64,000 nucleotides of DNA from Chrysophaeum taylorii. Its lineage: Eukaryota; Sar; Pelagophyceae; Pelagomonadales; Pelagomonadaceae. The stretch lies in contig JAQMWT010000109.1 in the NCBI GenBank assembly GCA_029834535.1, positions 186,001 through 250,000 on the forward strand. Direction: 5' to 3'. The position numbers were made by a program, and so were the translations under genes. Every line of letters starts with the position of its first letter. Position 1 is the stretch's first letter. The notes under the pieces are model-generated. The model was not told the origin of the DNA and did no database searches. It saw only the letters and a list, made by a program, of their open reading frames with translations. This document shows positions 29,196 through 36,389 of this stretch, piece after piece.

Positions 29196-30106
29196 TAACT
29201 ACTAATCGACAGATGTTTGTCTCTCTGTCTGTCTGTTTGTCCCTCGATTTAGGGTAAGGATCAGGTAGGCGCGAGAGCCAGACAGTGATCCTCCAAGCCG
29301 TCTACGGCGACCTCGCAGACTATCTCCACGACCCGCGGCGGCTCTTTCAGCGCGCCATTCTCACGCCCCGTCGAAACGATGTTGTCGATGCTGACAACGC
29401 GCGCATGACCGCGGCCTTTTTTTCCCGGTGACGAGGCGTCGGAGTTCTTTTCGGCTACTAGGCTGGGTCGGAAGACGACGCCTCGCTCTTTACAGTAGAG
29501 TTTTCAACTCCCTGACAACCAACGGGATGCTGACTTTGAGCGCGAGCTTAAGGTCTTTGAAACCTCGACCCGTCGCACGGCCACTGCAACGGTACCAGAT
29601 ACATTATCGATCGTGTCGTTGTCACCGAGGCTCCTCCAACCTCTATCGCTTAAGGCCCGCCGACGCCAAACGATCAACAAGAGCCAGGGCCAGACGCCCT
29701 GCGAGGTCGGCGTCCTCTTGCCCACAAGCCCGTATTCTGCCACGTCCAGCTCTACGTGGCTCTCTGTCGATCGGCAACCCCGAGGATACCCTCTTCTGGG
29801 TCGACGACTCCACCCTACCCCACACCTGCTGCGCAATACCGATAAGCCCCCTCCCGGCGTCTAACGCGCACTATAGGTTAACTTACTGGGACCAGGTGAA
29901 CTTACTGGAACCAGGTGAACTTACTGGGGTTAGAGATTGGGACTAGGTGAACTAAGTGACCAGGTGAACTTACTGAGACCAAGTGCGAACTTACTGGGGC
30001 TTTTAGAGTAAACTCAAAGCTTAGCGGCGTGTGCGGATCAAAGCAGCTTAGATTGGCAGGGGTGGGAGCGACGAGCTCAAAGGAGAGTGGGGTGAGTGGG
30101 TGTGGG
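29196..30106 (+). mobile_element. Helitron-like 3' fragment (PIF1-type helicase remnant), left part
   Basis: The plus strand, in mixed frames, encodes ILQAVYGDLADYLHDPRR, RAILTPRRNDVVDADNARM, NLDPSHGHCNGTRYIIDRVV and PVFCHVQLYVALCR. These are the C-terminal helicase motifs of Helitron RepHel proteins (ILTPxNxDVxxIN, NGTRxIV, PVFxHGQLYVALSR). Stops and frame shifts show decay. The helicase part (about 29286-29800) is followed by short subterminal repeats of the type GGTGAACTTACTGG. The unit is inverted relative to the tandem array at 59.1-64 kb. The fragment is interrupted at 30107 by a TIR transposon and resumes at 34780. Confidence 0.75.
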
Positions 30107-30193
30107 TAGGGTCGGATAAGAAAGCTCAAAACTAGGCCCTAGCCTACATTTCGAACACCAAACGAGAAACCCTCATTCAAAAGTGGATTGTCT

Positions 30194-30218
30194 CAGGCTA
30201 TGTTTCAAACATAGCCTG
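30194..30218. repeat. Perfect 12-bp palindrome near the transposon left end
   Basis: CAGGCTATGTTT, one C, then AAACATAGCCTG: a perfect inverted repeat with a 1-nt spacer, 88 bp inside the left TIR and 28 bp before the transposase ATG. A shorter palindrome CTAGG-C-CCTAG lies at 30132-30142. It could bind a dimeric transposase or act on the transcript; inference. Confidence 0.8.
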
Positions 30219-30245
30219 CAAAATCACAAAATCGGCGTTCCGCCC

Positions 30246-33200
30246 ATGGAATCGGCCGAAACGAGCAAAGAGTCGGCCCCGGGTCCTTCTGTAACCCCTG
30301 TGGACCCTTCGGTCCCGGCTGAGTTGACGAAAGTGTCGAAAAAACCCGCTGCCAAACGTCAACGGCGAAAAAACCTCTTGAGGGGAGAGTGCGTGTGCTG
30401 CGTAGCGAGGCTCGACGCCGACGAGACGGCCAGGGGCCAGCCGCTCGACCTGGAGCGACTCCTGAATATCGAGGGCGAGCTGCCCGACAAGTTCTACGTG
30501 TGCTCGAAAATGTGCCGGGACGACTTCACCCCGAGCAAGCTACACACGACGAAGGGCGCGAAGGCCGTTCTCGCCCGGATCTCCGCGTCGCTAACTAGGA
30601 CTCTCAAGACAACCATCCGCAGCGGGGACGAGGTCCTCATCGAGCACGACTTCTCGGCGGGGTACAACATCCAGGGCGGCAACGGCGTTGTCCTGGGCCT
30701 AATCTACAACAACACTGTGTGTCGGGTCGAGTCATACGACGTGAAAACGATTCAGCAGGGAGAGATCCGCGTCCCGTTCTCCCACGTCAAGGCCAAGCCC
30801 GACAAGGAGAACGACACCCCCCCGATTCGGCGACTACCACCCGGACGGCCAGCGCGTCCGACGCTTGGATCGAGTGGGTCATCGGTTATCTCCACACTGT
30901 CGTCGTCGTCGGACTCGAATGTGCGGATCTCGGAGCTCGAGAAGGAGGTGTCGAAACTCCGGAGCACGGTCGACAAGCTCACGGCGGCCAAGACGGCTCA
31001 GCACTCTCGCTCTGTCACCGCCGAACGCGAGACGAAAGAAGCCCACGCCGACGCCTTCGCCGCGGAAATGGCGGCCGCCAAGGCAGACGCGGCGCGTCTC
31101 GAGGCCAAGTGGAAGTACGAGGACGAGGTCCGGGATGCCGCACGTCGGGAGGCACGGCTCCAGATCCGCATCGAACGCCACCAGGCCTCCAATGAGAAGC
31201 AGCGCGACCGCGATGCCGCGAGGCTGCAGCGAGCCATCGACGAGCTCAACGCGACCAAGGCCCAGTCGAACGAGGCGGCGAGACAGGCTGCGGCGGCGGC
31301 CGAGTTTCGGGAGAGGAACCGACTGAAAAAATCGGACCCTCGGGCCATGCGACAACTCAAGAACAATTACGCCGCCCTCAACCAGGAAGCGAAGCAAATG
31401 GAGATAAAGCTCGCGGCTGCCGAGGACCGCGTCCAGGCCCGGGAGGAGGAGATCGAGCGGCTGCGGGAGCGGGTCGCGGTCCTCGAGAAGCAGAACGCCG
31501 AAGTGTGGGTACCGCGGAAGCCGTCCGGCAAGGGATCCGGCAAGGGCACTCCGTGGGACTCGAAGCTCAGGGTGCTGTGTATGAAACTGCTCGCCTCGCG
31601 GGTTGCGCCTGCGGAAATCCCCGAGGTCCTGGTCTCGGTCGTCGAGGCGGTCGTTGGCCCGGAGCGAGTGCGCGACATGGAGCTCCCGTCCGCACGCTTC
31701 ATTCACGACCTGCGCTCCGAGATGGGTGTCCTTCACGAGGCCGCCGTCGCCCTCGCCGTGGGATACGGTGACGTCGTCGACGCGGCGACGGACGCGTCGC
31801 CGCTCGACGGCAAGGAGATCGCGACTACCCAACTTCGCGTCACACGCGGCGGCGTGACGGAGAACTGGACGCTGGGCGCGAGCGAGATCTCCGACCAGAG
31901 CGCGCCTGGCGAGGCCAAGGCGATCAACGATCGGTTTGGTGACCTGAATCGAGCGCTCCAGCTCGTTAACCAAGTTTACCAGGAGCTCTACGGAGCCGAC
32001 GCTGCTGCGGAGGCGCTCCCGGCCGCCGGCAGCGCTGGCGTGCAGAATCTCGCCGGCCGGGCCATCGTTACCGACAACGCCTCCGCCGCCATCGCATCGG
32101 TCCGCGAGCTCCAGGAGCATGTCCTTGCGGCGGTGCAGAAGGAGATCGGGGAAGAGCTGTGGAATTTGATGACGCAAGACGAGCGCGACGCGAAGACTCG
32201 TGTCTTTCACGGGAACTGCCAGCGACATCTCGGTACGTCGTGCCGTCCCACCAGCAATTTGTTGAGCAGGCAACACATGGCTCGACGGCGGCGCCGCCGA
32301 GGAGGCCAAGATGCTCGACACGCTGCTGAAGGATAGCATCGAGAGCTCGGAGGCGAAGCACCTGCGCCTCACCGGCGAGTTGAACAAGGTCATTCATGCC
32401 TTGTCCAAGTGTATCGGCGAGGGCGTGGATCGCTACGGGAAGGGCTTCGGGACCCCTCTCCGGGCATTCCTCGAGGGGAAGCACCCGTCGGAGCTCTACC
32501 TCACGCTCGGCCGCACGGACAAGGGGACGCGGCAGGACGCGTGCACCAACGCGGCCTGGGTCATCTTCCACAACCTCCCGATTCTCGTCGAGTTCCTCGA
32601 GAACGCGAGCTACGCGCCGCAGAACATCCTCAGGAACAACCTCTTCTCGACCTTGTCCTCGCAGGAGGTCGCCGGAGCCATTCGAGCCCGAGCGATCATC
32701 GACGACAAGCTCACGGTGCCTTTCCGATTTTTCGCCGCATCGGACGCCCTCGAGGGTTGGTCGGTTCTCGACATGGCGGGCGTTCTCGAGCGAGTGCATG
32801 CCTTCTTCCAAGTCTGCCAGGATAATCCACAACTCGTTGCGACCGCCGGTTACGCGGCCTTCGACACTGAGATCGCCACCTACGCCCAGTTCCTCGAGAC
32901 GCGGGCCGGGTCGGCGAAGCTGTCCGTCGACGGCCAGTCCACGATCCGCGACGTCGCGGCCGGTCGGGCGCGGCTCTACGCTCCGACTGACACCAATGAT
33001 CCAGAGGCCAAGACCATGCTCGACGCGCTCCGGGCCTGGGGCCGCGGCATGCGCCGCACGTTCGAGGGGGGGCAGTCTATGCGCTACGTCGGCGACGGCG
33101 ACCTCGCGGCGGTCAACCAGACGTCGGAGCTCCGGAGGGCCTTCGACGGCGCGCGGCGGAACTCGAACGAGGTCGAAGGCGAGTTTGGCGTATTGAAGTA

Positions 33201-34401
33201 TTACAACGCCTCCTACGTCAACATGAGCGTCGTGAACTGCGTCGGGGTCGTCGCGTGCCAACGGGACCACATGTTCGACCGGGCCGCCACGAGTTTTACG
33301 ACCAAGCGCCGGCGACGCGTCGCCGACGAGGTCGCTGGTCGAACGACGACGAAGGCTCGAATGCGCGATCGAGTTGGTGGAGGACGTCTCGCCACGCTCG
33401 GCGACGACTTTCGAGGAGTGTTGATGGAGGCGGCTCGTCGTGGTCGGCAGAACCACAAGGAGCAGGCTGCCGCGCGCGCGGAGGCGGCGAAGGAGCACCA
33501 TCGCCGTCGCGCCGCCGCGTTCGTCGAGAAGGCCCTCGAGCGCCAGGTGAACGACTACGCCAAGGCCCAGGAGGCCATGAAAGTCAAGCCTGTCGTCGAC
33601 GAGCAGGCCCTCGTCGGGAGGACCCTGCTCTCGACGGTCAAGAAGCGACTTGATGCGGCACTTAAGCAGATCTCGAGCGACGCTGCGCGGTCGAAGGTCC
33701 TCAAGGAGAACATCGACAGGTACGTCGTCGGCATGGGCATGGGCGACCTCAAACCCAAGTCCTACACCTCGGGCAAGGACCCGACGATCGGCTCGGCCGG
33801 TTCCAAGGCCAACATCGAATTCCTCACCGCGCACCTCGAGTACGTCTACGAGCAGATCAAGACCAACTCCCGCGAGTTGGTCGCCGAGGCGGTAGTCCCG
33901 GGCGAGCGCCGACGGCAGCTGCCAGTGCTCGGGACCGCGACGGCCCAGCGTCTCGAACTCGACGCGAGGCGGCACTTGAGCGTTGACGAGCTCAAGGCCA
34001 AGGTTGAGGAGTGCCGCGCCTTTCGCCATCCGAGGAAGCGGACGCGGACAACGAGTGGCCGCTCGAAGCTACCGACGATTGACGTGGCGTTGGTCGGGTC
34101 ACGCGTCGAGGTTCTCTGGGAGTTGTCGGGGCACCCGGGCTGCTACTGGATGCCCGGCACCATCGAGGCGGTATCCGACGAGAACTCCAAGGACGGTCGC
34201 AAGAAACTCGGGCTGGGTTGGATCTTCGTTTCCTATGACGACGGTTTCAGCGGGTGGCTCCTCGCGAACCGCCCCACCTTCTTCAACGGCTCCAAGCCGG
34301 CTTCCTGGCGCTTCGTGTCCGAGGACAACGAATACGACGACGACGACGACGAGGAGGAGGAGGAGGACGCGATGGACGTCGACGACGACGACTACGCATA
34401 G
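30246..34401 (+). CDS. Putative DDE transposase of the 4.67-kb TIR element, 1372 aa
   Basis: Exons 30246-32232 and 32270-34401 around a 37-nt GT-AG intron; 4119 nt in frame. Visible parts: a zinc finger (CVCC at 49-52 and CSKMC, about 85-89); an SH3-like stretch (about 118-175); and a long Ala/Arg/Glu coiled coil (about 215-430). A candidate catalytic core follows: DAATDASPLDG (first Asp, about 515), AIVTDNASAAI (second Asp, about 609), HGNCQRHLGN (a CxxH motif formed across the splice), and NSNEVEGEFGVLK (Glu, about 965). Near the C-terminus is a Tudor-like region (VEVLWE..., VSYDDGFSGWL; about 1268-1335) before an Asp/Glu tail. DDE transposases of the hAT/MULE/Dada type have a CxxH after the second Asp and a long insert before the Glu, which fits. 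Residue roles are inferred; I recognise no named family. Confidence 0.7.
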
Positions 34402-34779
34402 CTGCGTTCGCGGGCCCCGACGCCGGTCTCCCGAGGACGCCCGGAAAGACGAGGACACTAGAACTGGCCCCAGTGAACAAAAGGCGCCGTCTAAACGCCC
34501 ACACGACCCTCATTGGGCCTACGGACATTCCCGATGCGCCGGTTGTTGTATTTGGAGCCGATGGCGTCGTGCAGAGTAGAGCCACCTAGGCCCCCGCCTC
34601 CACCGAGGCGCCAAAATACCTCACTCCCAAGTAGATTCGCCAAATCGGCAGCTACGGACTTCGTTCCAAGATAAAATCGGCACCATTTTGGGTCAACTTG
34701 GCGACGGACAAAAAAGCCCGCCAATCCTTGGGGATTTTCGGCCCCGGCGCGGGACCCCCGAGTTCCTTATCCGACCCTA

Positions 34780-34912
34780 GTGTGGGTTTACGCCGAACTT
34801 ACTGAGGGTTAGAGATTGGGTTTACACCGAATTTACTGGGGTTAGAGATTGGGATAGGTGAACTTACTGGGGTTAGAGATTGGGACTAGGTGAACTTACT
34901 GGCCTGCACTTG
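34780..34912 (+). mobile_element. Helitron-like 3' fragment, right part (subterminal repeats and 3' end)
   Basis: Continuation of the unit broken at 30107. Repeats of GGGGTTAGAGATTGGG and GGTGAACTTACTGG end in CCTGCACTTG. The same end text closes units in the 59-64 kb array, so about 34912 is the 3' terminus. It lies only 28 bp from the next gene's ATG. Confidence 0.7.
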
Positions 34913-34940: not shown

Positions 34941-36389
34941 ATGGCGGCGAGGATTCTGCGGCGGTTGGGGCAAAGGACGAGTCGGCGGCTGAGCAGTCTT
35001 GCCGTGGAGGAAGGGAGGTCTAGGTCGCAGAACCGCGAGATAAGCCTCGCGCTGCGGTTCGCCCTCGAACGAGAGGTGTTCGACGGTCGCGGGGTGACGG
35101 CGGCGCCGGTGGGGTTGTTCTACGACCTGGATCTGTGGGATCATTTGCTCGAGAGCTGTACCGGGGCGCTGCCCGAGTTCCAGCATTATATCGCCGTAAA
35201 GTCGAACCCCGTGTCACGGATGCTGAAGCACGCGGCTCGGAAGGGCTTTGGCGCCGAGTGCGCGTCGATCGGCGAACTCTTGGTCGCGCGCGAGCGGTTA
35301 GGGCTCGAGAATGTGGTGTTCGACAGCCCCGCCAAGACGTACGCCGAGCTCGAATTCGCGCTGTCGAACGGGATAAGGTGCCACGTCGACAACCTCGTCG
35401 AGTTCGACCGCGCGATCGCCATCTTGGGCGAAGAGGAGGCGCGAACGGCGCGGCGGCCACTAGGGTTTCGGATCAACCCGAGCACGGTGGGCGAGGGTGC
35501 GATCGCGGCGCTCTCGGTGTCGACGCCCGACTCGAAATTCGGCGTCGACATCTCGGATCCGGCGACGCGGTCGCGTCTCGTCGACGCTTACGCGCGCTAC
35601 GCCTGCCTCGACTCGGTCCACGTTCACGTGGGGAGCGGCGGCATGGCCCCAGAGGCCCAGCTCGCCCACGGCATCCGCGTCGCCCTCGACTTTGCCCTCG
35701 ACGTCAACCGCGTCGCCCCCGGACGCGTAAAGGTCGTCGACATCGGCGGCGGCCTGCCCGTCAACTACGAATCGGACGACCTCTCGACCGACGCCGTCCC
35801 GACCTTCGCGGCGTACGCGGCAGTCTTGAGGCGCCACTGCCCCGAGCTTTTTGACGGGAGATTCGCGGTCCTCACCGAGTTCGGCCAGTCCCTCAACGCC
35901 AAGGCCGGTTTCCTCGCCTCGCGCGTCGAGTTCGTCAAAAAAGACGAGCGCAGGACGTCCAAACTCGCCGTCGTCCACTTCGGCGCCGACCTCTGCGTCC
36001 GCCAGGCCTACGCCAACGCCGACCATCCCCGCCGCTTCGCCTGTTTCGGGGGAACCGACGCGATGCCCCTCGACCCTGGATCCGACTCGTGGAGCATCGG
36101 CGGCCCGCTCTGCTTTCAGGGGGATTTTGTTGCCAGGGACGCCGCGGGCGTGCTCCCCGACGACCTACGCCCCGGCGACCTCCTCGTCATGAAGGACGCC
36201 GGTGCTAACACCCTCGCCCTCTTCTCGCGCCACTGCTCGAGGTTCGCCCCCCCCGTCTACGGCTTTCGCTGGAAAGACCCCCGCACCAAAACCCAAATCG
36301 ACGATCTCATCGAACTCAAACCGCGCGAAACCCTCGATTCCCTCGCGCATTTCTGGGGCGGCTCCTCCGGCTACGACCTTCCCATCTAG
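34941..36389 (+). CDS. PLP-dependent decarboxylase, fold type III (diaminopimelate/ornithine decarboxylase family)
   Basis: 482 aa, single exon, ATG 34941. The N-terminus MAARILRRLGQRTSRRLSSL is Arg/Ser-rich, a likely mitochondrial (or plastid) presequence. The alanine-racemase-type barrel has the PLP lysine in YIAVKSNP (about residue 87), the pyridine-stacking/phosphate region HVHVGSGG (about 228-234) and DIGGGLPVNY. The C-terminal beta domain has TEFGQSLNAKAGF, GPLCFQGD (the catalytic Cys loop) and KDAGANTLALF. DAP decarboxylases make lysine; ODCs make putrescine. GPLC-x-GD and DAGA look DAPDC-like, but the substrate-specificity helix is not clear, so the substrate is left open. The promoter region is made of transposon sequence. 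Confidence 0.8.
   Translation: MAARILRRLGQRTSRRLSSLAVEEGRSRSQNREISLALRFALEREVFDGRGVTAAPVGLFYDLDLWDHLLESCTGALPEFQHYIAVKSNPVSRMLKHAARKGFGAECASIGELLVARERLGLENVVFDSPAKTYAELEFALSNGIRCHVDNLVEFDRAIAILGEEEARTARRPLGFRINPSTVGEGAIAALSVSTPDSKFGVDISDPATRSRLVDAYARYACLDSVHVHVGSGGMAPEAQLAHGIRVALDFALDVNRVAPGRVKVVDIGGGLPVNYESDDLSTDAVPTFAAYAAVLRRHCPELFDGRFAVLTEFGQSLNAKAGFLASRVEFVKKDERRTSKLAVVHFGADLCVRQAYANADHPRRFACFGGTDAMPLDPGSDSWSIGGPLCFQGDFVARDAAGVLPDDLRPGDLLVMKDAGANTLALFSRHCSRFAPPVYGFRWKDPRTKTQIDDLIELKPRETLDSLAHFWGGSSGYDLPI

Follow-up and report, generated by a model that had tools for sequence, protein, structure and literature searches.

A Terminal-Inverted-Repeat Transposon of Chrysophaeum taylorii and Its Probable DDE Transposase of the C/DxxH Group

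Introduction

The C/DxxH motif is common to the transposases of the hAT, Dada, Kolobok, MuDR and P superfamilies (PMC10045372). In the hAT enzyme Kat1 the catalytic set comprises D310, D377, C402/H405 and E895 (PMC4763223), and Hermes, another hAT enzyme, prefers the target nTnnnnAn and leaves a target site duplication (TSD) of 8 bp (PMC10368747). We have analyzed a transposon that can be compared with these systems. It occupies 4673 bp (positions 30107-34779) of a 64,000-nucleotide stretch of the genome of the pelagophyte Chrysophaeum taylorii, which is referred to here as the window. The element is bounded by terminal inverted repeats (TIRs), and carries a single gene for a protein of 1372 aa.

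Two further groups are relevant to the comparison. Dada elements have a TSD of 6-7 bp and encode a large protein of ∼1400 aa, with an N-terminal Cys cluster, a C/DxxH motif, catalytic residues spaced as D567-D635-E811 and a C-terminal CCHC finger; Dada elements with clear termini sit in small RNA genes, and Dada-U6 and Dada-U1 are described there without TIRs (PMC3706591). KDZ transposons, which are likewise large, eukaryotic and of the DDE type, have been reported from Ectocarpus as well (PMC12477816).

Our best reading is that the family to which the window element belongs is of the DDE type and the C/DxxH group, and matches none of the superfamilies named in the libraries searched or is at most deeply divergent and hAT-like.

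Results and Discussion

The Element Is a TIR Transposon Inserted into a Multicopy Repeat

The ends of the element are inverted copies of TAGGGTCGGATAAG, perfect over 14 bp and 94% matched over 17 bp. They are flanked by an exact 7-bp duplication, GTGTGGG, and enclose a two-exon gene with a 37-nt intron, whose ATG start codon lies at position 30246 and whose stop codon is at 34399-34401. An earlier reading of the window, made from its letters only, had claimed the 14-bp TIRs, the 7-bp duplication and the two-exon gene with its 37-nt intron, and each is confirmed in the window sequence.

The sequence-only reading had also proposed that other copies of the surrounding repeat, a putative Helitron, show the empty site, and the empty site was borne out. 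The query was made by joining both flanks over one copy of the TSD, and 40 of the 1915 first-look candidates were scored. At least 40 uninterrupted host places span the junction, each aligning with 167 or more of the 172 bases at 94-99% identity. The insertion in the window interrupts a multicopy repeat. Within this host repeat, either flank of the insertion has short direct repeats of the AACTTACTGGGGTTAGAGATTGGGACTAGGTG type (29890-30010 and 34787-34910).

The 14-bp TIR occurs in the 70.8-Mb genome 220 times in the forward and 243 times in the reverse orientation, with no matches to the reversed control. At 75 places two perfect ends are spaced by 254-268 bp, mostly 259 bp (control 0). These are miniature inverted-repeat transposable elements (MITEs), and in the 14 MITE loci examined the sequence common to them and the window element is confined to the terminal 17-21 bp. 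An exact 7-bp TSD flanks 11 of the 14 long-spaced copies, including the one in the window. No two of the 17 exact TSDs found in the family are alike, and they follow a palindromic pattern N-Y-N-N-N-R-N, with a pyrimidine at position 2 in 16 of the 17 and a purine at position 6 in the same number. Further copies having the same TIR and 7-bp duplications, as envisaged by the sequence-only reading, are present in the genome, and their ends do not differ from those of the window element.

The coding sequence is also repeated. Exon 2 gave 73 protein matches in the genome, of which nine are full-length (709 residues) and 98-100% identical; all but one of these nine are free of stop codons, and the window copy is among the eight. 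A further 29 loci are 98.5-99.7% identical to the window element over the part that they hold. In a run of G at ∼33066-33072 of the gene a 2-bp deletion is common to nine loci and a 1-bp deletion to six (among L024-L038). Deletions common to several loci suggest that damaged lineages multiplied in trans; sequencing error in the run could partly account for them.

The Encoded Protein Is Very Probably the Transposase

The window protein was aligned with nine metagenome proteins and with 11 genomic loci that are diverged or broken, and conservation was counted at each residue over those sequences that have a letter there. The candidate catalytic residues D516, D610 and E965, and C658 and H661 of the C/DxxH motif, are invariant (Table 1), and E963, the neighbor of E965, varies among relatives. 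The spacing, expressed as differences in position, is D -94- D -48- C-x2-H -304- E, with 303 residues lying between H661 and E965. The Asp/Asp/CxxH/Glu set of the sequence-only reading thus stands by virtue of its invariance, with its positions slightly corrected to those given here. Catalysis would be performed by D516, D610 and E965. From the alternation of the segments around D516 and D610, judged by eye, we infer a putative RNase H fold.

Table 1. Positions of the Transposon and Gene Features in the Window
Feature	Position	Strand	Observation
Left TSD, GTGTGGG	30100..30106	.	Same letters as 34780-34786
Left TIR, TAGGGTCGGATAAG	30107..30120	+	463 genomic matches; control 0
Exon 1, transposase gene; residues 1-662, plus the first base of codon 663	30246..32232	+	Homologous to protein P0011 along its length
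N-terminal Cys cluster, C49-x2-C52 ... C86-x3-C90, putative zinc finger	30390..30515	+	C49 11/11, C52 9/10, C86 10/11, C90 11/11
Beta-rich-looking segment following the Cys cluster, residues 118-190	30597..30815	+	Kept in relatives; no Pfam match
Long charged segment, probably coiled coil, residues ∼226-420	30921..31505	+	Composition; corresponding stretch of P0011 matches coiled-coil models
D516 codon, proposed first catalytic D (D1)	31791..31793	+	D in 13/13
D610 codon, proposed second catalytic D (D2)	32073..32075	+	D in 18/18
C658xxH661 codons, C/DxxH motif	32217..32228	+	C 13/13, H 13/13
Intron, 37 nt, GT-AG	32233..32269	+	Predicted from sequence
Exon 2, transposase gene, with stop	32270..34401	+	Exon 2 protein matches in genome
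E965 codon, proposed catalytic E	33175..33177	+	E in 11/11
Conserved C-terminal domain, residues 1270-1345; Tudor/Agenet likeness judged by eye only	34090..34317	+	Kept in diverged relatives
Acidic tail	34321..34398	+	Similar tails in P0004, P0005 and P0006
Right TIR	34766..34779	-	Inverted match to left TIR
Right TSD, GTGTGGG	34780..34786	.	Same letters as left TSD

We are fairly confident that the element is a class II cut-and-paste transposon, and that the one protein it encodes is a DDE transposase of the type in which a C/DxxH motif falls between the second D and the E and a long insertion precedes the E. The sequence-only reading had inferred that the protein is the transposase. The invariant residues, and the copies with the same ends and 7-bp TSDs, speak for that identification, which we regard as very probable.

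The alternative is a passenger role for the 1372-aa protein, with the element being moved by another protein. This would suit the MITEs, which have the same ends and move without the protein, and also the lack of a match between the protein and any transposase model. Yet no other long conserved reading frame lies between the ends, and the candidate catalytic residues of the protein do not vary within the family. The same gene is accompanied by related TIRs and a 7-bp TSD in a diverged family. We regard a passenger role as very improbable.

If the protein is the transposase, it would bind the 14-17 bp ends and excise the element. Insertion would then occur with a 7-bp stagger at 7-mers having a pyrimidine at position 2 and a purine at position 6. 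The same enzyme would mobilize the ∼259-bp MITEs in trans by way of the common ends.

Diverged Lineages Have the Same Architecture

Relatives at 31-59% identity were found in marine-type ENA contigs, and a profile search added five more; among the candidates sharing exact words there were none in viral contigs or GTDB genomes. Within the C. taylorii genome there is a second type of TIR, TAGGGTGGGTTAAG, with 12 + 5 matches (control 0 + 1), and several of its copies adjoin diverged copies of the gene. One diverged element (L065, 2643-5499) has the ends TAGGTTGGGTTAAG and TAGGGTGGGTTTGT, alike at 10 of 14 positions, an exact 7-bp TSD GCTTTGT and, 36 bp inward, a further copy of the TIR. As judged from these comparisons, the family is present as several diverged lineages in C. 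taylorii and in marine metagenomes.

The Cys cluster, the segment that follows it, the charged segment, the C-terminal domain and the acidic tail all occur in relatives, and the architecture is therefore a property of the family and not of this copy alone. The Cys cluster may bind zinc; it gave no match in Pfam, and no His is evident as a ligand. Comparison of the Cys-cluster segment with the C-terminal domain by hhalign gave a probability of 0.3%. At the point where the window gene has its intron, relatives such as L040 read straight through HLGNTW, and P0003 has, at exactly this point, an insertion of 18 residues resembling a retained intron. On the strength of these alignments the 37-nt intron is lineage-specific.

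A number of observations weigh against the reading of the element as a cut-and-paste transposon moved by its own DDE protein. The TSD is inexact in three of the 14 long copies, C493 agreeing at six of seven positions and C6 and C529 disagreeing. At the MITE loci it is exact in six of 14 and inexact in eight, so that the MITE ends are less clean. Most of the long copies carry frame-breaking indels, either the deletions in the run of G or others of their own; only C138, C675 and C529 have none in the part held, and C529 has a stop codon. The pooled pN/pS among nine near-identical copies is 0.88, so that purifying selection is not evident, which is as expected if the copies decay neutrally following a recent burst. 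A convincing pair of TIR and TSD is missing in the other 10 of the 11 diverged loci scanned, all of them old and broken. Moreover, the scan yields background pairs of similar score, and the L065 case consequently depends on its TIR motif and its exact TSD together. Lastly, neither the halves of the window protein nor its relatives matched a transposase family in Pfam or NCBIfam at E values up to 10. We consider the element to be intact and to have been recently active.

The Family Matches No Named Superfamily in the Libraries Searched

The matches returned by Pfam and NCBIfam were coiled-coil or stray ones, such as SMC_prok_B (2.3e-05) and HAUS1 (2.6e-04), both on the P0011 coiled coil, and FluMu_N (0.0055) in one of seven family members. 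A sequence profile search of the PDB with the family gave no matches at E up to 10. The view of the sequence-only reading that this combination of parts matches no superfamily known to it is supported within Pfam, NCBIfam and the PDB sequences, none of which gave a strong match to a superfamily with a name.

By its motif the family joins the C/DxxH list. Of the other members of that list, P, MuDR and Kolobok gave no match with the family proteins, as judged by the Pfam models only. The target of Kolobok is TTAA, which was not seen among the 17 exact TSDs. Membership of KDZ is not supported, the Pfam KDZ model PF18758 being unmatched by the family proteins; this model also gave no match in the whole genome, in a search whose control was silent too.

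By layout, hAT is the nearest known superfamily. The order D, D, CxxH, long insertion, E is that of Kat1 (PMC4763223), and short TIRs and an N-terminal Cys motif are further points of likeness to Kat1 and Hermes (PMC4763223, PMC10368747). The pattern N-Y-N-N-N-R-N is a palindromic pyrimidine/purine preference like the nTnnnnAn of Hermes (PMC10368747). In contrast, the TSD is 7 bp and not 8 bp, and the protein is 1372 aa long with a coiled coil and an extra C-terminal domain. It has no match to the hAT dimerization domain or to a BED model, and no DxW, the W two residues past D1 being missing. The dimerization model PF05699 (Dimer_Tnp_hAT) is unmatched in the family at E up to 1 and up to 10, yet it finds five genuine hATs in the genome. 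The family core compared by hhalign with two C. taylorii hAT proteins gave 0.1%, which is a weak test as these are fragments and the profiles have one sequence each. A protein search with a genuine C. taylorii hAT returned two proteins, both of the same species. The TAGGG of the TIRs resembles the ends of Ac. A deeply divergent hAT would have the same fold with its insertion domain and the same hairpin chemistry, with a TSD of 7 bp instead of 8; we think this unlikely, while keeping it in view.

Dada resembles the window element in its 6-7 bp TSD, its large protein of ∼1400 aa, its N-terminal Cys cluster and its C/DxxH motif (PMC3706591). Its defining features are otherwise. The window element has perfect 14-bp TIRs, unlike Dada-U6 and Dada-U1, and its catalytic residues are spaced 516-610-965. 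Dada targets small RNA genes, whereas the 17 exact TSDs of the window family all differ and the insertion in the window lies in a multicopy repeat. There is no C-terminal CCHC in the window protein, which has a single Cys past residue 1270. We therefore reject Dada, and a Dada origin for the element is extremely improbable.

The family might instead be a widespread eukaryotic one that is already present in animal sequence data and perhaps named. Unannotated animal proteins may have the same order of parts, with a D2 to CxxH spacing of ∼46, TNxVxERxFAxLD as the E motif and a Tudor-like C terminus. Pattern scans for real sequences of this kind gave 14 chance matches, and then 0 and 0, and a literature search for them gave 0. 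If such proteins do belong here, the family is widespread and may have a name already, and its novelty is lower. We lean against this possibility and still give it appreciable weight.

Returning to the reading of a C/DxxH-group family that is outside the named superfamilies, this would constitute a new branch of the C/DxxH transposases (hAT, P, Dada, Kolobok, MuDR) in pelagophytes. The main text of the pelagophyte genome paper does not mention transposons, and a literature search, which covered few subscription papers, found no published report of the window element.

A C-Terminal Domain Is Conserved among Diverged Relatives

The C-terminal domain has the consensus G-x-x-V-x-V-x-W ... W-x-P-G-x-I ... 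G-W-x-F-x-x-Y-D-D-G-x-x-G-W. One of four C-terminal pieces gave a Pfam match to Agenet below threshold (E 0.081, 13.9 bits against a cut-off of 27), and a PDB sequence profile search with the domain gave no matches at E up to 10. Identification as Tudor or Agenet, made by eye and from this one sub-threshold match, is tentative. The domain might read chromatin, and the guidance of insertion to marked chromatin suggested by the sequence-only reading is a hypothesis only.

A Gypsy element of Ectocarpus was called the first reported transposable element with a Tudor domain by its authors in 2025 (PMC12477816). Like the window element, this Gypsy-10_Ec32 belongs to the mobile DNA of a stramenopile and has a reader-like domain at its C terminus (PMC12477816). 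However, it is an LTR (long terminal repeat) retrotransposon with an integrase, whereas the window element is a DNA transposon and its domain is Tudor-like by eye only. In the titles and abstracts covered by our literature search, a DNA transposase with a Tudor domain did not appear as a subject.

At its most specific, the proposal would be an unnamed superfamily of DNA transposons having TIRs TAGGGNNGGNTAAG, 7-bp N-Y-N-N-N-R-N duplications, a Cys cluster, a coiled coil, a CxxH DDE core and a built-in C-terminal chromatin reader kept throughout marine algae and metagenomes, the transposase itself, and no partner protein, choosing the chromatin. In this complete form we find it decidedly doubtful. 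Conservation of such a reader-like domain in diverged transposases would offer a direct test of whether a DNA transposase targets chromatin through a domain of its own.

Gene Models, Nested Elements and Tandem Repeats

A gene for an ornithine/DAP/arginine decarboxylase begins 162 bp downstream of the element (34941-36389). In the public gene model CTAYLR_003894 (P0001), pieces of the transposase are joined to this gene, and in a similar manner the public model P0002 fuses parts of a transposon copy with a neighboring PF01124 gene. Both fusions are probably annotation artifacts. The gene models of the C. taylorii genome thus include transposon exons fused to host genes.

Within one diverged relative of the transposase gene lies a nested element (L064:355-2384). 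Its inverted ends, TAAAGGAAGCAACGAACC, are 18 bp long, and the duplication beside them, GGCCATTC, is exact over 8 bp. Transposon ends are also contained in tandem repeats. Three MITEs lie at ∼395-bp intervals in C177:14734-15784, and three copies of the second type of TIR at ∼352-bp intervals in L060:1172-1889.

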